From positions 40,834,801-40,898,800 of the forward strand of contig OX359247.1 of NCBI GenBank assembly GCA_947179485.1: a stretch of DNA of 64,000 nt, read 5' to 3'. The stretch comes from Allacma fusca. Its lineage: Eukaryota > Arthropoda > Collembola > Symphypleona > Sminthuridae. Both the position numbers and the translations under genes were made by a program. Below are positions 5,128-52,534 of this stretch, one piece after another. Numbering within the stretch: position 1 is the first letter of the stretch; every line of letters begins with the position of its first letter. The notes beneath the pieces are model-generated. The model had not been told where the DNA came from and did not search any database. It worked only from the letters and a program-made list of their open reading frames with translations.

Positions 5128-5773
5128 ATGACAATGGAAGCACCAATAAGAATCCCATCAGATATGGAAGCCTACAAAGATTTCTTCAACTGGACTATGA
5201 CTTATAGGCTGGATTCCGACTTCCCTATTACTTACGGGAGATTCATACGAAAATCTCCAGAGGAGATTCAATTCTACCAACCTGCCGATGATATCGATCA
5301 TATTAAATTAGCCAAGTAACATAATACGTTAATACAGAATATATAAATGTATTGGTTAGATTGTTAGTGAATTCAAAATATTTATAATACTCACTGATTC
5401 TTTTGAATGTTTAGAATCTATAGCAGAATGAAAACGGCTTCTTGGATGGTTTCCAACTGTGACGATGCACCCAGTCAGAGGAACAAACTGGTCCAAGAAC
5501 TTAAAAAATACAAACCATTTCCACTTACGGCAAGTGTGGAACGAATCAATGCAACGAAACCATTGATCCTGATTGATGGATCTCAAGTATTTTGACTGGA
5601 GGAGATATTACCATTTGAGGATTTTGTGGCTATTGGAAGAAGCCTACTGCGCAGCGTGTGAGAGACTCCATAAGGAAAATCCTCCAGCGCCCTCTGTACT
5701 TGATATCAATGACTGGTTATTTCGAAAGAATTCGGAGAAACCTGTTTGCGATGAGGTGCCAGTAAATTTTTAA
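5128..5773 (+). pseudogene. Alpha-1,3-fucosyltransferase pseudogene, truncated and deleted
   Basis: This is a decayed partial copy of the GT10 gene at 8182-12534. The first part (5128-5315) matches exon 4 of that gene from MTMEAP onward, including FNWTMTYRLDSDFP. An intron (from 5316, GTAAC) is retained at the same place, so this is a DNA duplicate, not a retrocopy. The second exon starts near 5415 or 5427 and matches WxVSNCxDAP and KLVQEL. It then loses one base within the KYxP stretch, which shifts the frame. About 230 bp are missing relative to 12102-12330, which removes the donor-binding segment (FYLSFENSLCKDYVTEKFF in the other copy). Homology resumes at LKYFDWRRYY and runs through CERLHKENPPAPS to the end. 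The 5' half (anchor, stem, N-terminal domain) is absent. No functional enzyme can be made. Confidence 0.9.
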
Positions 5774-8181
5774 TTTCTATTAATATACACGAATGCGTTG
5801 TCATAATTGGATTCGTGCTATAGTCTTTTTATGTCTGCTATAGTTGCACCATGTGTGTAACTTATTAATGTGGATGTATGTACATAGATGTATGAGCATA
5901 CATATCCTGCAATGTTACATATTATGTAGGAAATAATGCAAGTAAGCACAATTGTATAAAAGAAGTGTATTTATGTTATAGTTACTATATTCAGATCATT
6001 ATTGCAAACAGGAGTTCAGACTAAGTACATCCCACTATATTTTGCTTAACATAAATAGCTTAACAACTATTTATTCTGGTTAATTGGAATGGATTTAACG
6101 CTGATAAGACAATTACTGTCTGGGATATCAAATGGCTTTGTGATTTCGTATGCGTCAGGGGAAAAACGTGTTGAATGAAAAATCGTGAAGGAGTGTTAAT
6201 TCCTTTACTCAATATTAATCAAATATTGACCTTGTCTTTTGCTCTATTAATTTCTACAAAATGTAAAAACAAGCACTGACAAGTCTACGTCCTTTTAATA
6301 CAACTTGTTTTCCCCATATCTTTTCCGGGTTTTGAATAGAGAATCTGTATTTTGTCTTGTCAGGACCTCCGTCATGAATATAGCAAACACACACAGGTCA
6401 CATTTTTACAAACTGAGTTTGTGTTTTTTTGGTTGCGCAATTTCAGGCTGCTGACAAGTATTTTAGTTATACAATATGCCAAATGAACATATGGACATTT
6501 CATTTCAACTGGATGTTGTAATCACTATCTACGTATTTACTTGCCCTTAATTACAGATTTTGCTTTACAAGTTTTTGCTTTTAAATCTTTGCACTGCTCA
6601 AAGTGATCAAACTTCTCGCAGTAACAAAAAAATGTAACAACCAAATTGCATCAGGATATCAAATCAAACTTTTTAAAAATATATGATGTAATACATTACA
6701 TCATGTGCCTCTAACACTATAATATTACATACACCATGGAGGTTAAGAAGGCGCCTCTCAATCGTCAATTTTTGGCGGTAGAGCTTACGAAACATTTTTT
6801 AAAAACAGGCAACCCAACTATACTGAACTATATGATTACTTTTTTATCTAATTAGTCGAATTGAAAATGTGCATACAAACATTTTTCTTATTAAATTTAC
6901 TGTAGGGAACTTGTAACACGAATGTTTATACTTTATAGGGGTGCCGTGAAAAGAAAGTCTCTATTTTGCATGTGTGTCTATAAAAACATGGTTATTAAAT
7001 TATCGTGCTATCTGTAATCATCGATGATTTGGCAAACAGATGGTCACCTACATATGTACAGATATACAGTGCCACGACACTCTTTTTATAAAACGGGCAT
7101 TAATTATGCTTTGAGAGACCGTCCTTTAAGTTATCTCACCGAAATCGTTGACAACTATATTATGAACATGTACGTTCCTGGTCATTTTACCCATAATTGT
7201 GAATAGCAGACCTTGACCATAAGTTGAAAATATACGCATTTATTCAGAAAAGCTACATGACATTATTCATGGTGCCGCAAAACATTTTTCTCGCCCTAGT
7301 CTGGAACTCTTTGGCACTCTTTTTGTGGCCTGTGTATAATATTCAATGTAGGGATACTGACAATGAGTGCTTGTTTGAAGGCCCTCTAGATTTGCTACAA
7401 ATTGGCCTCACTTTATACTTTTTATAAATTTTCAAAATTTAAATAAAAAATCAAAACCTTCACAATTTTCGTTCTAATCCTAATTTTTTTCGTCAAATCC
7501 GGACTTTCCTCCATTTGTTTGAACGTTGTATTGCTAATGTTTGCAAATATCTGGAAGAAAATTTGTAAGAAAATGAGGAAACCAAATATTTCCTCCGTCC
7601 ATGGGCAAGCGGGAAGAAAATTGTTTTGCGGCACTGATTGTGAGAACACCATGAATTATGTGAATCACTGTTGCGTAATTTTAAGTGGAGGAGGCCCTAA
7701 AATCTGGGTAATTATTGAACCGTAAAATTGGCCATAAAATTGGCCAATGAACTTAAAGGAAAAAATATATTTGCACTTATACACTATAGAATTGATGCTT
7801 TAAAGCTGATATTTACTCGTTACACTCCCGTTAGATTACAGAATTTACAGTTCACGGAGGGAATACAAAACCGCAATTTCTGATTCCATGTGTGTTGCCT
7901 CTTGCATTTATGATGTTCCTTCTATATTTCAGATTATACTTTACAATAAACCAAAGGAGTGTATGGGATTACGTTTTTTCATTTTCTTATCTCACAAGGT
8001 ATGGCTCAAAATTTGAAAATACATATTTGTACATACGTACGTGTGCATAATGTATTTAAACAGAAACTTTCATTTGGATAAAAATGGGACTGTAACTTTC
8101 AAAAAACTTGGCAGTTGGCTCTGGCCGAAGTGCAGGACAAGTTAAACATTTTCGCTGCAAATAAACAAATTGATAGGAAAT
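5774..8181. other. Intergenic, no gene supported
   Basis: AT-rich sequence between the two fucosyltransferase copies. Short open frames (for example 7024-7206 and 7224-7427) have no splice-consistent extension, no recognisable motif and no coding signature. I see no repeat family here. Confidence 0.5.
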
Positions 8182-11100: not shown

Positions 11101-12534
11101 ATTTGAATTAATTCGTATCGGAATTCAAAATTAATTATTTGGATACATCGGAATCGGAATCTAAATCGGAAATAAATTTAAGCAGGTATTGTAATTGGAA
11201 TCGGAATTTTTATTTTTCCGATATTTCATCCCTGACCAGAAGGAATTTTAGAATAATAATATTAGGTGAGACCTGTTGGTCCGACCTCGCAGGAAAAAGT
11301 CCGAAGAATTCTCTGGTGGTCAACGGTGTATGGAGGAAGTCCTCTGGATTCTTTGCTGTAGGTGCCGGTAAGGTTCTTGTTTTCCTGGCGAAAAAATGCA
11401 AGTTCAAATGTGAATTCACGGTGGATAAAACTTAGCTGGAAAGTAGCCACGGAGTGGTATTCCATGGATGGGGAGATGATCTCCCAGTTGAAACGTAAGG
11501 ACTTGACAGTCACATCAAACACAGCTATGTAAATCTTGAAGTATGCTCATATACAAATATTACATGCATTGGCGCTTTAATTTCAGAATCTTTGTTGGGG
11601 ATAAAAGAGTAACAGTCCCACTGAATGCTCCCCAGCAAAGATATGAGAATCAAATATACATTTATATGACGTTGGAGGCGCCACAAAGAATCCGAACAAA
11701 TTTGGAAGCCTATAAAGAGTTTTTCAACTGGACCATGACTTACAGGTTGGATTCGGATTTCCCAATTCCATATGGGTGGTTCATAAGGAAATCTTCTCTA
11801 GAGGCTCAATTTTACAATACTTACGCAGACGGGCTTGACTACAACACATTAGCCAGGTATCATAATATGTTAATACAAAAAATATATCTAACCAGATTGT
11901 TGGTGAATTTTCGGTTGTATGATGATTTTGAATGTCTTTGAACCATAGAAGAGCAAAGTTGGCTGCTTGGACGGTTTCTAACTGCGAGGATGCACCAAGC
12001 GAGAGGCACAAATTGGTCCAAGAACTTCAGAAATACATACCCATTTCGATTTACGGCAAGTGTGGAACGAACATGTGCAATGAAACCATTGATCCGGATT
12101 GCTGGAATGAGTTGGCAATGTTTCACAAATTTTATCTCTCATTTGAAAACTCACTCTGCAAGGACTACGTGACGGAGAAGTTCTTCAATTCCTTGAGAGT
12201 AAATATGGTTCCAGTTGTGTACGGGAAAGCTAATTACGGTCACCAGTTCGCGCCAGGATCTTTCATAAATGTGGATAGTTTTGCGTCCGTCAAAGCATTA
12301 GCACAATATTTGATGTATTTGAATGGGAATGATGAGGAGTACCTCAAGTACTTTGAATGGAGGAAATATTACCGGCTCCATCAGGGATGGCCTGTGGAAG
12401 ATGCTTACTGTAGAGTGTGTGAGAGATTGCATAAGGAAAATCCTCCAGCGCCCTCTAAGCTTGATATCCATGACTGGTCCTTTAGACAAAATTCTGAAAA
12501 TCGTGTTTGCGATGGGCCGCGTTCAAAATATTAA
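8182..12534 (+). pseudogene. Alpha-1,3-fucosyltransferase (GT10), apparently disabled
   Basis: Five exons fit a Golgi type II glycosyltransferase that would transfer fucose from GDP-fucose to N-glycan or Lewis-type acceptors. Exon 1 (8182-8322) is a short cytoplasmic tail plus one membrane anchor (FVEILIIISFVVVIWSFLIL). Exon 2 (8459-8551) is a polar stem. Exon 3 (11293-11494) is the start of the N-terminal domain (RRILWWSTVYGG, later GVVFHGWGDDLP). Exon 4 (11587-11856) contains FNWTMTYRLDSDFPIPYG. Exon 5 (11949-12534) contains the GT10 core FYLSFENSLCKDYVTEKFF and ends CERLHKENPPAPS...CDG. Splice phases agree except inside exon 3, where the frame shifts after SPLDSLL near 11355-11362 and a TAG interrupts the frame at about 11432 after FTVDKT. 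Exons 4-5 are fully open and well conserved, so decay is recent or exon 3 has assembly errors. A hAT element sits in intron 2. An AATAAA lies at 12546. Confidence 0.85.
10371..11234. mobile_element. Degenerate hAT transposon in fucosyltransferase intron
   Basis: The 864-bp insertion has imperfect terminal inverted repeats: CAGGGTTGAAAATTGG at the left and, read inward from the right, CAGGGATGAAATATCGG. It is flanked by an 8-bp target duplication with one mismatch (ACCAGTAG at 10363-10370, ACCAGAAG at 11235-11242). TIRs opening CAGGG and 8-bp duplications are hAT hallmarks. Both ends carry many subterminal GGAATCGGAATT-type repeats. On the plus strand around 10850-10950 there is a broken relic resembling the hAT dimerisation region (ILSIPAT, a stop, then GRFFSALRLI), so the element descends from an autonomous copy. 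Its right end lies 58 bp before exon 3 of the host gene. Confidence 0.87.
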
Positions 12535-12545
12535 TTTCTCTAGGA

Positions 12546-33400: not shown

Positions 33401-36400
33401 TGTTTCTGCAGCTAATCCGTTAAGTATCACATTGCCCTAAAAATTGTGAGCCGAACTTACGTACAATTCTGACAGACTGACTGTCTTCCAGCAAAATCAA
33501 AAGTTGAGTCCAAAGTAATGCCAAAAGAAGCACACTGAAATGAGAATTCTGTACAACTGATTGGGAGTACTGTCAATGCCAGGAGACTTGACTATTTACA
33601 GAAGGTAAATAAAATGTGACTTACTCCGCACCACCTTCATGGGAATTGTTCCCTCTCGGACCAAAGACGACTTACTAAACCGTGTAACGTAAGAAATGAA
33701 TTGGATAAGGAAAAAGCAAAACTGTACACGGCAGAGAAAAGATTAATAAAAAGGGAACGTGAGAGAGGAGAGATAGGCGACTAGCTACCTACCTGTCCGT
33801 GCCTTACGTGGAAACTAACCTAAAGGCTATGATACAGTTGATGCTGCGTTTTTACTACTGCATAAAAACCAATGCAATAAAAAGCACTGCTCTGCAATAA
33901 TGGCTCATGTTCTCATACTATCGCATCACATCGTCATATATATGTATATTGTAGGAGCCGTACATTGAATAGTACAGTAGTCCTAAAACTCCACTCAGTA
34001 CTACAAGGAATGTACTCTACTCATAAAAAGCATCTGCACCTCATACCATTCCTCTTGGTTGAGGACTCTACTGATTTTGCATACTACTACTCTCGTATAA
34101 AACATTTTAATATCTCAGGTGATAGATATAAAATAGATGCATGCATAAACTTCCACACTAAATTCAGCCCCAACTCTTCCCTTCCTCTGAAAACCTTTGA
34201 AAATTCAATACAAATTCTCTGCCGTTCTGCTGTTCTGACTTTGTTGCCTTCATTATAAAAGGCTCATTGTGTGAGCAGAGTTAAACGCAGAGTTACATTT
34301 AAGAAGCATGCATGTTCTACTCCGTTGTGGGAGAAAAGCTTTAAATCAGCTTTATTGTCAAATCCAAGTGGCTCGAACATACCTCCTGCTGTCAACTATT
34401 CATTTTTTGGCATTGGCGTATTTGAATGACATGAAGATAGACTTGTATGCGTGCAATTAGGATTTTCAGGCTGAATTATTTAACCACAGGGCTTGCAACC
34501 AAGTAGAACCTTCATGTATGGGTATCTCCAGATGTATATGTACTAGTGGCACATCTTATGCTAAGCCCTACTAAATAATCATATGTTTAATATCTATGCG
34601 CCAAATCATAACCACTGACATGCATACGAGCGTATACATAAAGATCCTGCGATTCCTGTACAGAAATTAATTTTTGGGATTGCGTAAGTGTATACTTACA
34701 TACGTGACTTTACTACAGTTCATGTACAGGATGTTGCGTATTCCTTTTCTCCATCTTTACTTATTTCATGTGGACAAGGTTCAGTTTTAAATTTTCTTAT
34801 TTAAAGGGAATCTTTTTGCAGACTTTTCAAAATTATCTTCTATAGGTAAGCCTTTAAAGTAACATAGTGGCCACGCGAGTGAAGGCAGGTGGCAAGTGGC
34901 AAGATTATCAGAAAAAGTTTTGAGATTTTTGCTTTACAAAATAAAATTGATAAAAAAATCTTGTTTACGATCATATTCTGGTAGATTTTATTGGCTTCAA
35001 ATTTTTCTGCGGAGTTGTCTTTCCACACTTTATTTCCTGCAACCTTGCCTCACCACTCGATCCTGTGTGTCCAGACTGTTCCGCAGTGGTCTCTATAATA
35101 GCAAATTTTTAGAAAAGTTTTAGTGTAAGCCGGAGATTGAAAGTGTAACTCTGCTCATGAAACAAGAAATTCCGGGTGGAATTCAAGCACTTCAAGAAAT
35201 TACTGGGACAACTCCAAGCATGTCCAGAAACCCTGCTTCAAGACTGTAGACACCCCAGTTTGGACAAACCAATCTCCGTGACTGAATTTAATATAACTAG
35301 ATAGGAACTGGAGATTGGTACCGGGAGTAGACGGAATCACTAATGAATTCTTGAAATCTATTCTCGGTAACTTTTTACAGCTGTTTCTGTAGCTATTTAG
35401 AATTTTTGAAGTATTTTTGAAGAATAGAATTTTTGAAGGAGGCTCACCCCAGGTATCTGGGGTGAGATCGAAATTGTGCTGCTATATAAAAGAGAGCAGA
35501 GATGATTGGGAAATAAACAGAGTGATCTCCCTGATAAATTGTGCGGTGAAATGGTACACACACCAGCAATACATACAATAACAAATTTTGAAACTAATAA
35601 AATTTGGGAAAGATATATAAGTGTGAACATAATTTTGTTTAAAATTCTATTTGGAAATCCAAAATTGTAATAAAGGTTTTTCGGTAAATCTCCCAACTTT
35701 GCTTCTCTCACTTGACCACTATGACTTTATGAGCCAGCTTAAATTAATGCTGACAATTTTGAAAAACCTATAAAATGATTCTCTTGAAAATGAGGAAATT
35801 AATTTTTTATCACACCTCAACCTTGTATGGGGTAGGTGGAGAGGGTGTGGAAAATGATATGCAGCACCCTGTATGCACATCACATACATACATACATATG
35901 AACATAAAAAACCAGAGAGAACAAAATCAAGGTTTCTTTTTGTTTGAAATTGCGTTCCCAGATTTCCGTCTTTTTTGTGCAGTTCTATCGTCAATTGCGG
36001 GTTTTGAGGTTGTAGCATTCTACGAAAAAGTTTTATCCCTAAAGGTTAGCAACCGGTTGCAATTCTGAATGAAGGAATAATAAATACATGCAAGAGCTGC
36101 AGCGGTAGCATTTTAAATAAGATAGATTTTGTACCTGGTTGAACTGAAGGGGTTCAAAACCTTGTCACGAAAAGGCGTTCTTGCATACGTACTGTAGAGC
36201 TAGTGTAAGTGAGGCCAGCGAAATCTATACTTTTGTTGGAAAGAATTTCTTTTGGGAACCGTTCCAACGTTTGTTAATTTATTGACCGTTGTGGTTTGGC
36301 GTTGATGGAATGACAGTAGGTATGAAGTCAAAACCGAGAGGACGCGTTGCACATTTTCTGACAATATGTTCAGAAACTGTAGAAATGTATATAAAATCGA

Positions 36401-43338: not shown

Positions 43339-46300
43339 TTCAACCTTATTTTTATTTCTAACTACTCTCACAAAAATGCAACATTATTAGTACACTTCTG
43401 ACAATTCATAATTACTATCTTTAATTATTCACAACCGCTAAACCTCCGGAATTATAATAGGTAATAAAAATTCTTACACCATTTTTTTTACAAGTTGTAG
43501 TAATTTTGGGGAGCTGTAAACATTTTTACTTTTTATGAGGTCAGAAATTTAATACCTACCAAAAACAACCCTTGAATTAATTTTTCTTTCTCACAACATG
43601 TGTGTGAGATTTAATAGGTGAAGTCATATATTCCCGCGGAGTAAAGAATACCTTTTCGAACCTTTTTTTTATTCACGGAAGCAAATTTATTTACATTGAA
43701 CCTTCTTCGAGTTCGAGTTCGAGATTTATTTTACTTGTACTTAATCTTGTAATGTTGCTTATAGAGTTTTATTAAAATTAGTTGAATAAATATTATGTAA
43801 TAATATATTTGTTTTACTATTTTTTCAATTTTAATTTTTAATATTTAATTCCGTAATTAATAGGTGAGGAGAAACAGTAGATTCAAAATTCAAAAAATAT
43901 AGGGAGCAAAATTGATTTGGGTACCTCCAATCTATATGTAATTGTGCATAATAGTAGATAACCCGACAAAGGGATCTAAAATATTTTGACGTAGGTTGAA
44001 AAATATTGTAATAATGAGAACCCTTGTAGAAAGTGTTCACTGTATTTTAAAGGCTTTATAGATATGCAGATTATAGTTACTTCGTAATTTGTTTGAGGAC
44101 TGTTTGTGAAGGCAGGTATTGCTTGGTGTTGCAGGTGATTCTGAGTAAGTAACTGCTAATTGTGAGTAATTTCATAGAAAAATTTCCGGTCATTTGGGTT
44201 TGTGAAATCGGAGTATAAAATGTTTGAATAAGTTTCTATTTGGAGTAATAATGATTCTTGTCTTATTGTTAGAGTTCTTGTCCCAAGGTGCTTTGAATCA
44301 AGTAATTTGTAGTTACATTATAAAAGATTGAAGTACATGATAATATCAATGTTCCCATTGCTTGAAAAATAATTTTAAAACTGGGAAATGGTTCCGGTAG
44401 TTTATACTTTTAGACATTGTTACTGAAATTAAGTGTACTGCTTAATTTGTTATGTTTGATAGGTGGTTGAGGCATAAGTTGAGAGTAATTTAAGAAAGAA
44501 TAAATTAAAATTGAGGATACTTTTTGAGAAACGATGAGATTTTCCAGGAAACTAGAAGGTTCATTACTCAGTCAAAAATTTCAGGCTAGGATTTTTAATT
44601 TCGCCATTAACTCAAGGTCATAGAGGTAATGCTGCAATATTGTCAATTTGGTTTGTGGTTCTTGTTTTTATCGTGTCTAGATTTGTAATATTGTAATATT
44701 TTTGTGGTAAGGGTTTTGTAATTATGGTTGTATAAGTTGCAACAAACAGCTACAACCATAAGTAGTGACTTGTTAAATGAATGTAATAGTTTTTAATCCC
44801 ATGCAGGTTTGAAATTAGATCTACTAGTTAGTATTAGAATCAAAATCTAAAGATCTAAGTTCAAGTTTGTGTCGAAGTTTAAGTTTTTGGCTTCAGAAGC
44901 CAAACTCTTTTGATTTTTAATATTTTTCAACTAGGTACCACCACTACCACATTACAGATGCGTCTCTGGAAACAATGGATTCCACATTTTGGAATTATAA
45001 AGATGTCCCGGAATTTTATCAACAGGCACCGCACAGTACTTGTGAGAAATGTACCTGATAATTACTCTTTGAAGTTACGTTACACGAAACAAAACCTCCA
45101 GCAATAATATCTCGGAAGACAAAGTGTATAATGTTGACTGGCTCGGCTTCTATGTGTAAATACATCTATTAAACCCCATCGACACATCTACATATGTGCC
45201 TACGATATACTCTCAAATCACTCAAAAAGTTTGCATGTCTCGTTATCGAATGATTTATTACCCACGGTTCCTCCCGTAAAAAGTTGACCCATCCATACGC
45301 GCGAAAATCGTATCGCAATGTTTTTCCATTGCAAGAGCAAAGGATTTCTAGATCAATAGATTTCTATCGCAATGGAAAAACATTGCGATACGATTTTCGC
45401 GCGTATGGATGGGTCAATTTTTTACGGGAGGAGCCGTGGGTAATAAATCATTCGATAATGAGACATGCAAACTTTTTGAGTGATTTGAGAGTACTCGCTC
45501 AGTCCATTAAAAGAAAAGTTGTAAACCTATCCCCCGTCACCCTTCATTTGCGGTTGAAACTTCTCTACACTTAATTTATCACTTCTTAATTTATGTCTTC
45601 AATTTTTTAGTTTCGATTTATGGAGCTGATATTCCATTTTGTGACTAAGACTAGCTTCAAACTGGCTCCTTTAAATTCATTACAATCCGGGGTGAATTTA
45701 CGGGATGGTCCACCCTGGCCCCGCCAGGATAAAAAATTCAGGACCAGGGTAAAAAGAATATCGTAGACCCTCAGATTGCAAATGGTAAAGCCCACAAATC
45801 CATTTTGAGGCTTAGGGCCAGGGCAAGAATTATTTTATTAATCCACCCCTGATTACAATTAAGTGTCAACCTGTCGTTAAAACTAAAATTTGAATAAGAA
45901 AATCAAAAACTCAACGTTTCACTTTTCCCGGAAAAAATCAGACATTAAGTCCTTCCTTAACCGCTTTATAGAGAGTTTCTGGATTTAGGAGGATGAAACA
46001 AAATTTTACCTACACCTGACAATCTCTCATAATTTTCTACAAAATACGGGACTCGAACATTTTTTTTACCATTGTCCCGTGTATGGGCATCTAAGGGGGT
46101 GTGAATGTAATGTGGTATCCTCATACTATGTAAATGCAAATGTGTAGGAAGTGGATTCGTACGTACGGCTTTGTTGGTGCTGTTGGCAGCAATAATTATT
46201 ATTAGCCATAAAAATCGGATTGAGGGAAATAAATAATAATAACTACAGATATGCAACTACGTATGTATGCGCATTTTAAATGGCAATTAAACTTTTAGGA

Positions 46301-48605: not shown

Positions 48606-51600
48606 ATGGAAATAAACACAAAACTTCGGTTTCTCACAGCCATATACGTAGTAAGTGGATTCAGTAAATATTTTGTTGTTGGACGGGAACCCCTTATAAA
48701 AACTGTCCCATGTAGTTTGGAGGCAGTTTCTTAAGCGCTGTGTGAACTGCGTCGGCTATTGTCGACTTTGTGATGCATGTATAGTTTACAGTATCTACAC
48801 TTCCTTTTTGAGGTTTAACCCACTTTAATTGTTTGGGAGCGTTTTGTAAACGTTGTAGTATTTGGGCACGAAAGCGTACGAACGGATATTATTCCCATAT
48901 TTGACATTGAGACATATGTACATATGTCATCAGTCATGTATAAGAATACGGAATAATTATATTTTGATGAAAATTGGGCTGACGCTTTTATGTATCTTTG
49001 TATAAAATTATTATGACATCTAACAATATATAACTCTGTAACCTTGGTTTAGTGAATTTTCAAGTGTGATACCGATAGCATCAATTGAATTTGCTGCTTT
49101 TTATGGTTGTGTACCTATATGCGTATGTATGTAAACTGATGAGTACAAAGATCCCTATCCTGTTGACTATTCACAAAAGGTAGTAATTCTATAGTGACAA
49201 AGTTCAAATGAGGTCCCTCTTGTTAAATGACATGAATAATGTCTCGAGCGGGCCCTTTATAAATCCACCACAAATAGTGTGTATGCAATCATTGCAAACC
49301 GAAATACCTTTATTTCTGAACAATATTGTAAACGTTCTTCTTTTGAACAAGGACACTTCCGAAATAGAACTGATATTCTGGATAACCTGGAAGACTTTTG
49401 TAATCAATCGCTATTTCCAATTGTCCATGCAGTCTTTTAATAGAGGATAAAAGTCATCCTGAGATGAAACTCCAGTCGAGGCCTGCTTCGCTAGTGGGTC
49501 GTGATATCCCTGACAGTTGTTGCATAACAGTTGTGCATGTGGGGCAGAGGTGTGGAAAATACATTAAATTAATTATTAGAATACAAAATATAAATACACA
49601 TCCAGTAACCCTAATAAACAAAATATAAGTACATTTCCAGAAACCCTAATAAACAAAATATAAATACATTTCCAGAAACCCTAATAAACAAAATATAAAT
49701 ACATTTCCAGAAACCCTAATATAAAAAATACAAATACAAAATACGTTTCCAGAAACCTTAAAATACAAAATACAAATATATTTTCAGAAACCTTAAAATA
49801 CAAATATATTTTCAGAAACCTTAAAATACAAACATATTTTCAGAAACCTTAAAATACAAACATATTTTCAGAAACCTTAAAATACAAATATATTTTCAGA
49901 AACCTTAAAATACAAATACCACGAGTAACTTAATTAAGATACAAACTAAAATACAAATATCGGGAGTAATTTTGGCAAGATACAAAATAAGTTACTTTGC
50001 TTCCAGCAAACACCAAAAATGCGAAATGAAAATACCATATTTTAAATACAAAATGCATATTGAAACTACTCAAATTTATCTCAAAGTATGTATCTGGAAT
50101 GTATCTGTGTCTCAAGTTTATTCTCTCAAAGTATCTTGGATAATTTAACCAAATAATTGGATATTCAAAAATTATTCAGCAAACGTAAGGCAACAGGCAC
50201 GTAATTAGAGTTTAGAGTTCTGCATTTGTGTAGATCAAAGTAGTGTATCATGACCCTAGATACAAAATATTTTTCCTCAAAACGAATAACCTTATAATTC
50301 ATGTCGTGGGTATTTTTTTACGGATTTTATATTCGCGTCAAATTTAGCTAAATTAAAGCCCACACAAACATTTAATTTTACGTATTTATGAAATAAACAA
50401 GTTCTTTAAGCCAACCAAAAAGTTAAAGAATTGACTTCAAAATGTTTCTAATTAGTGCTTTTACCTTTAAAATATTTATTTGGGCATGTGTTCCGTACGA
50501 CCATGACAGTTGCCAGAGCTACATACGTATTTTGAAATTATACTTCGTACTTGAAATATGGGGTGGGCAAACGTTACAAGATAAATAAATTCAAAATAGC
50601 ATCGTAGGTCTTCAAAATACAATATAAATTTTGGTGCTGACAAAATACGAAGTGCAAAATACCTTAAAACATTGATGGCGAGAAAAATATCAAAATAAGC
50701 AATGTACATATCTAGTATTTCAAATATTATTTCAAAATATTGCACACCCCGATGCCGGGGACAAGAGGGTTATTGACTTTGGGGTGAAGGCCTTGTTATC
50801 GGGCATACGTGTTTGTCTCCAGATTAAAAGTAGCATTTATTAAAGTATCCGTATCAAAATGATACATATATATGTAAAAAAAATGCGCAGTAGCTTGTAC
50901 ATACAGTAGATTTACTGCTAACAATATGTGCAGATACAATCGATGTCAGGCGTGTTTTCAAACTCACAATCAGTCATTGCATTGTTGCTTAAGAGAAGTC
51001 TTTATAAAAACATTTCTTTTCATTGGGACATAAATATTTAGTACAAGCTCCAGGTTGATTTTTTCTCTGTCTGAGTATGCCTGTATATAATCAAGAAAAA
51101 TAACAGCAATCAGGAATCAAATTTTGTTCACGCATTTATTTCTGCTGCTAAAGGAGGAGCGCACTGTGATTATATTAAGCCCCTCAAGCACATATTGTGG
51201 CACTTGAATTTTAATTTATTGCTCTTAATTTTTTCAAAATGAACTTATACCGTTTTGCTTTGTATACTCCTCATAAATACGTTAATATTCCTGAATAATC
51301 AGCGATCCGGTACATACTTAAAGTGGCTGAGCAAATGAGTCACAATTGCGGTAGGTTCGATAAGCGCAGTACTAACGGGATTAGTCTTTTCAAGATTCAT
51401 GTGTTTATGATACACATTTAAAGGGGTAATCTGTATTGGAGCTGAATTAAGGGTTTATAATATATGGTGTCTATTTATTTATGCTGAAATAGCTAACAAA
51501 TTATGAAATACACTGTCATCTGTAAAAATGTTGCTAATTTTCATATGAGTATACATACTTAACACCTTCGCAGACAGTTTTTGATGTAAGCTTTACACAT

Positions 51601-52534
51601 GTGTAATATTTAAAGAACCTCATAGCATCCTCAGACCACACATACTGTTTGCTTGACTTGTACCAAATATTTTTCTGAGATTTATGAAACTTGATATTGA
51701 TAACTTTGCTTACAATGAGTCCCTTGTTGTTTGATACCTTATCTGTATAATAATTTTAAGAACCAATGAAATTTTAAACGTTTTTTTCAAACATTATTGT
51801 AACATTATGTCCCATGTATTTTCTGATTCTGTGCAGATCTATGGATTGATGCTTATGGGAGCGACATTTACTTACTACAATCAGTTGCAAGATGTTCAGG
51901 ATAGTACGAAGATGCAATGTAAATTTGTTGAAGAGGAAACCAGAGGTAAATTTGACCTTCATGACGGGGAGGAATTTTGCAAAAAAATTGGAACATGGGT
52001 AACTTGCTCCATGGTCGCTTTCATTGCTGGACTACTCATTGTATCATCTACTATTTATTTTTACACGAAAATCGCAACCCAGGCGGTGAGTTGTTCTTAA
52101 TATAAAAAATACTGCCCAGAATCAAAAATAGCTAAATTGTTTTCAATGCATGTGTACACTCCTTAACTAGTATACATTTTCTGTTGAATTTGCAGAGTCA
52201 CAACTCAATCGCATCTCGAGACCCTGAGAAAACTTATTTCTTTTACATCGTGCTGTTGATTGTAGTAGCGTCCATGTCAACTATAATGTCAATCATGTTG
52301 ATAGACTCGAAAGCCATCACAGCCCACACAGGAACTCATATTCCCACATCTCTACAATTAGTTGCAGTTGTAAACATTGTACTATTATTTCTACCGTTGC
52401 TTTTATTAATTGTAGCAACAGTTGTGGTTTCTGCAGTATTGCCACTCTGGAGCTTTATTTTTAGCAATCGGACACGGGCCAGAGATTTTACTCAGGTGCC
52501 AATGACCAATAACTCATGTGATACAATCGCTTAA
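48606..52534 (+). CDS. Four-helix membrane protein, 210 aa, family unknown
   Basis: Exons 48606-48650, 51837-52085 and 52196-52534, all phase 0, give 210 residues. Four membrane segments are evident: about 8-30 (spanning the first splice junction, LTAIYVIYGLMLMGATF), 62-88 (VTCSMVAFIAGLLIVSSTIY), 109-132 (YFFYIVLLIVVASMSTIMSI) and 145-180 (LQLVAVVNIVLLFLPLLLLI and onward). The loop between helices 1 and 2 is charged and has two Cys (MQCKF, EFCKK). The C-terminal tail is short and polar (FTQVPMTNNSC). The topology recalls tetraspan families such as TMEM179 or claudin-like proteins, but no signature motif supports a name; this is not a tetraspanin (no CCG). The first coding intron is 3.2 kb and holds a hAT-like element. 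Confidence 0.78.
49545..50751. mobile_element. Putative hAT-like non-autonomous element in intron
   Basis: The left end CAGAGGTGTGGAAAATAC and the right end (read inward, CGGGGTGTGCAATATTTT) form imperfect inverted termini of hAT type. Possible 8-bp target duplications flank it with two mismatches (ATGTGGGG at 49537-49544, ATGCCGGG at 50752-50759). The interior is packed with AAATACAAATAC subterminal-type repeats, including a tandem array in the left part. No transposase relic is recognised. The exact right boundary is uncertain by a base or two. Confidence 0.65.
49600..49915. repeat. Tandem AAATACAAATAC...CAGAAACC array
   Basis: Roughly ten degenerate tandem copies. The early units are about 40 bp (ACATTTCCAGAAACCCTAAT, then AAACAAAATATAAAT) and the later ones about 30 bp (ATATTTTCAGAAACCTTAAA, then ATACAA). 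The array lies inside the putative hAT-like element and probably arose by expansion of its subterminal repeats. Confidence 0.85.

Follow-up and report, generated by a model that had tools for sequence, protein, structure and literature searches.

A near-perfect hairpin in the genome of Allacma fusca, very probably a Tc1/mariner-type MITE

Long inverted repeats can be read either as mobile elements or as sources of double-stranded RNA, and a hairpin in the collembolan Allacma fusca raises the question of which reading applies. It lies in a stretch of 64,000 nucleotides (C10:40834801-40898800, here called the window) of a host assembly of 392.7 Mb in 91 contigs. The initial annotation had weighed a Tc1/mariner-type foldback MITE against an hpRNA locus and had allowed for an assembly artefact. 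Here, we present evidence that the hairpin is almost certainly a non-autonomous Tc1/mariner-type MITE of 282 bp between duplicated TA dinucleotides, an ordinary and well-supported member of a known element type.

Anatomy and setting of the hairpin

The hairpin is built from two terminal inverted repeats of 125 bp each, outer TA included: a left arm on the plus strand (45208-45332) and a right arm on the minus strand (45369-45493), separated by a 36-base loop (45333-45368, plus strand). The arms are identical at 122 of 125 positions, and the mismatched pairs are 45242/45459, 45268/45433, and 45283/45418. TA stands at both outer ends (45208-45209 and 45492-45493), for which the chance at two given dinucleotides of this window is about 0.008. 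Between them lies the element proper (45210-45491), delimited by an inverted-repeat and target-site duplication scan and by the family's places in the host genome; its terminus is TACTGTCAAATCACTC. Read directly from the sequence, the left arm ends in the palindrome GCAATG-TTTTTC-CATTGC (45315-45332), and a longer form of it, TATCGCAATG-GAAAAA-CATTGCGATA, spans the end of the loop and part of the right arm (45365-45390). The initial annotation had described this anatomy correctly, from the coordinates, loop, and outer TA to the palindromic inner arm ends and the small number of arm differences.

In the window, the hairpin is the sole ungapped inverted repeat of at least 30 nt with arms within 5 kb, and a gapped scan scored it at 240 versus 55 for the best structure elsewhere. 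At 34801-35788, arms of about 205 bp form an imperfect inverted repeat around 577 intervening bases. Folded as plus-strand RNA, the hairpin reached -231.6 kcal/mol, whereas 200 shuffles averaged -62.7 (sd 4.79) and none was as low (z -35.26). All three arm differences form G-U pairs on the plus strand, which leaves 125/125 positions paired on this strand and 122/125 on the minus strand; given three transitions, this outcome has a chance of 0.25. The observed/expected CpG ratio is 1.64 in the hairpin versus 0.75 in the window, and 0.7% of 1275 sampled 286-bp segments, those over the element included, reach 1.64.

Open frames flank the element: minus-strand frames ending at 43383 lie about 1.8 kb away, and a frame at 51735 follows after about 6.2 kb. 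We tentatively regard these flanking frames as genes; no Pfam match over the cut-off was obtained there. The open frame running through the element (45254-45574) matched no Pfam family at E values up to 0.1, and the element is without coding capacity, as a Tc1/mariner-type MITE should be. Searches of the window returned no Rfam family above the gathering score and no tRNA, plasmid and phage collections gave no match, and a collection of viral contigs contained no exact match for four patterns. A single exact 20-mer in a bacterial MAG, found in a collection of genome contigs, did not continue into the arm and was taken as chance. A literature search limited to the letters of the terminus yielded no published name for the element and, among the matches listed, unrelated titles and no 14-mer.

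Apart from the element and registers inside it, a structural scan of the window for target-site duplications and terminal inverted repeats (TIRs) returned two weak TA hits, compared with 0, 0, 1, 0, and 0 in five simulations, as well as one 8-bp hit that did not exceed the controls. A second small element of 165 bp lies 194 bp to the right (45687-45851); it has the ends CCGGGGTG.../...CACCCCTG and identical 8-bp flanks, ATTACAAT, and by the usual hAT criteria we take it to be a hAT-like MITE. Elsewhere in the window, 5395-5778 and 11540-12539 are alike (77-86% in the matched parts), the latter encoding fucosyltransferase N- and C-terminal domains, and 49583-49990 is a minisatellite array whose units measure 35, 28, and 41 bases.

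Copies, empty sites, and a transposase-bearing relative

A search of the genome with the element produced 574 candidates, the best 40 of which were scored; being the best matches to the query, they leave older copies unrepresented. These 40 copies are 93-100% identical to it, measure 282-288 bases, and lie on contigs C1, C8, C9, C10, and C12. All were fetched with 300-bp flanks, and 34 of them have distinct flanks, pairwise sharing at most 35 of 50 positions on either side. The six dropped as non-distinct were L018 and L020 (flanks as in L014), L029 and L030 (as in L028), L037 (as in L034), and L049, whose right flank equals that of L033 and whose left part is missing. TA occurs at both ends of 36/40 copies and of 32/34 distinct ones; L036 and L047, each lacking TA at one end, were retained among the 34. 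The other copies that the initial annotation had suggested looking for are therefore there: many, dispersed, and of one size, as in a Tc1/mariner-type MITE family. Three copies with equal flanks, spaced about 9.5-10 kb apart at C10:60082137, 60091591, and 60101713, represent a local tandem duplication.

Exact genome matches to the 22-base terminus number 220 (102 forward, 118 reverse), against 0 for the backward control. From the first 100 listed of these, we fetched 20 places without a partner at the spacing of the element. In 16 of the 20 stretches, more than 400 bp recur in one or more of the others, which defines a repeat of about 1.08 kb; for L083, what recurs is a neighbouring second stretch. 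Both repeat ends (CAGGCGCGTAGCC...) were present in 14/20, with 8-bp duplications that are identical in 12 and carry one mismatch in 2; the pairs L073/L074 and L075/L076 have common duplications, as parts of duplicated regions. Its ends and 8-bp duplication mark this repeat (L075 140-1222, with relatives among L070-L089) as hAT-like. Two pieces of our element travel in it as passengers, a mini version of 79 bp and a degenerate one, so that terminus counts overstate the number of MITE insertions. At C1:16393073-16402847, two 4.2-kb stretches in opposite orientation (L075 and L076) are 99.9% identical and belong to a large inverted duplication of recent origin.

Copies L014, L018, and L020 are inserted in a larger repeat, which provided a view of the target before insertion. 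With the left flank of L014 as the query, 78 candidates were obtained and the best 40 scored, these three included; 20 of the other 37 were fetched. In all 20 sister copies, a single TA joins the left flank (300/300 bases aligned) to the right flank (298 or 300 bases aligned), without the MITE. Such sites represent the state before insertion, and the unit thus inserts with duplication of its TA target. The empty TA sites proposed as a check have in this way been found, and the duplication is shown on copy L014 rather than on the window copy itself.

The parent type is indicated by a relative. A genome search with the DDE_3 transposase profile (PF13358) gave 54 matches from 139 candidates, and the best 30 were fetched. 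Only one of these 30, L110, resembles the MITE (short-word BLAST, E 0.1 or better), and the 16-base MITE terminus was present within 3 mismatches in 0/30. L110 consists of TA-flanked inverted repeats, alike at 102/109 columns, enclosing 1982 bp. Its left TIR aligned to bases 1-118 of the MITE left arm with 92/114 aligned positions identical and a score of 114, compared with a maximum of 49 in 1000 shuffles of the arm; five other DDE_3 loci, aligned to the arm in the same way, each remained below their own shuffle maximum. Unlike the MITE, L110 has an interior with a DDE_3 transposase frame, which is broken: it scored 37.9 bits in the genome search, over the cut-off, with one stop inside, and of its three open pieces scanned singly, two gave DDE_3 matches short of the cut-off (24.3 and 20.4 versus 28.6 bits) and one did not match. 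A PF01359 profile gave no match, and its controls gave none either.

TIR similarity together with the DDE_3 match indicates that the MITE arms represent long TIRs of this kind of Tc1/mariner element, its interior gone. The MITE shares its TIRs with a transposase-bearing element by similarity, not identity, the termini differing at 4/16 bases. L110 is a relative and not the direct autonomous partner, which was not found among the best 30 of the 54 DDE_3 loci. We propose that the interior of a long-TIR Tc1/mariner element was lost, so that only the two TIRs and a short spacer between them remained, and that transposase supplied in trans then spread the resulting MITE through cut-and-paste transposition into TA. 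The hairpin shape would then be a consequence of the long TIRs. Dispersed copies, TA ends, empty sites, and L110 together bear out the foldback MITE reading of the initial annotation.

MITEs of this build are known from insects. The Bari-derived (Tc1-mariner) MITEs of Drosophila are likewise short, non-coding, targeted to TA, and mostly TIR, a likeness of build; Bari_Dmel_MITE1 measures 116 bp with 46-bp TIRs (PMC4877112), whereas the Allacma arms, at 125 bp with TA, are longer and show their relationship to L110 of the same genome. Tc1-mariner MITE clusters of Rhodnius prolixus share the TA duplication and a similar size range, and a longer partner was available for only 4 of 15, the autonomous partner often not being found (PMC4678618). 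None of the 12 TIRs in Table 2 of that source starts with TACTCTC or TACTGTC.

Drift and joint change of the arms

The initial annotation had concluded from the few arm differences that either the insertion is young or the pairing is maintained. Among the 34 distinct copies, private changes affected one arm in 68 cases and both arms in 1. On the plus strand, the 68 one-arm changes comprise 37 transversions, 16 G-U-forming transitions, and 15 A-C-forming transitions, indicating that inserted copies drift arm by arm and that pairing is not maintained. Selection for pairing had been considered on the basis of the raw count over all 40 copies (69 G-U versus 40 A-C, with 102 transversions), which takes in shared changes and duplicated copies. 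As this lean is absent from the private changes, it must stem from shared changes together with the six copies that were dropped. A young insertion thus fits better than maintained pairing, and the identity of the arms is partly inherited from the source elements.

Over the 40 copies, arm and arm within a copy differ by 4.2% on average, and left arms of different copies by 5.6%. The terminus takes the form CTCTC or CTGTC, and the two ends of the same copy agree in 32 of the 34 (position 5: C/C in 19, G/G in 13, mixed in 2). At position 35, 28 copies have G/G, three have A/A, and three are mixed. Both of these positions require that the two arms changed in source elements. Altogether, matching two-arm changes were found at 12 of the 125 pair positions, in 27 cells. 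When the right-arm letters were shuffled among copies 500 times, such positions averaged 3.3 (sd 1.4) and never exceeded 8, and such cells averaged 8.2 and never exceeded 14; matching cells numbered 4073/4241 versus a shuffle mean of 4032. This shuffle ignores relatedness, and common descent can account for part of the two-arm excess. Conversion between the arms would be a plausible cause of the matching changes. It is conceivable, although we hold it to be somewhat less than an even chance, that both arms change jointly as DNA, by conversion within the hairpin, either in source elements or while an element is being mobilised, and that inserted copies then drift arm by arm. Joint rewriting, if true, would explain subfamilies with matching changes in both arms.

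RNA-based readings

The MITE might additionally feed siRNAs, with fold-back read-through transcripts silencing the transposon family. In C. elegans, read-through of Tc1 TIRs can yield double-stranded RNA and silencing (PMC3878927), and the Allacma duplex would be suitable. The identity of 92/114 to L110 is too low for long perfect siRNA matches, and the best 30 DDE_3 loci contained no closer partner. By analogy with Tc1, we consider such a role possible but unlikely; if double-stranded RNA arises from read-through transcription at all, it would be a by-product.

Far less probable is an hpRNA locus, in which the transcript of a long inverted repeat would be processed by Dicer-2 and the resulting siRNAs would silence a target gene of the host. 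Drosophila hpRNA loci also are long complementary inverted repeats, and they typically derive from and target host genes and respond to loss of dcr-2 (PMC10317233, PMC10292708), whereas the Allacma hairpin belongs to a dispersed transposon family. Its long, nearly perfect duplex, the G-U pairing of all three arm differences, and the excess of G-U over A-C in the raw 40-copy count would suit an hpRNA. Against this stand the multi-copy distribution, seen in the best 40 of the 574 genome candidates where one locus or very few, with homology to a target gene of the host, would be expected, the lack of any match of more than 15 bases to the hairpin in the rest of the window, and the private changes, in which the G-U lean is gone and pairing is not kept after insertion. 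The hpRNA proposal of the initial annotation is therefore not supported by the sequence data.

Faulty reads can yield near-perfect palindromes, and the fold-back artefact that had been allowed for can be set aside with near certainty, given a near-identical loop in 34 distinct flanks, arms that differ from each other, and clean empty sites for copy L014.

The insertion evidence settles this striking hairpin as a transposon. A long perfect hairpin by itself is no ground for calling an hpRNA gene. With its many copies and clear arms, the Allacma family could be used to test how the arms of inverted repeats stay alike.
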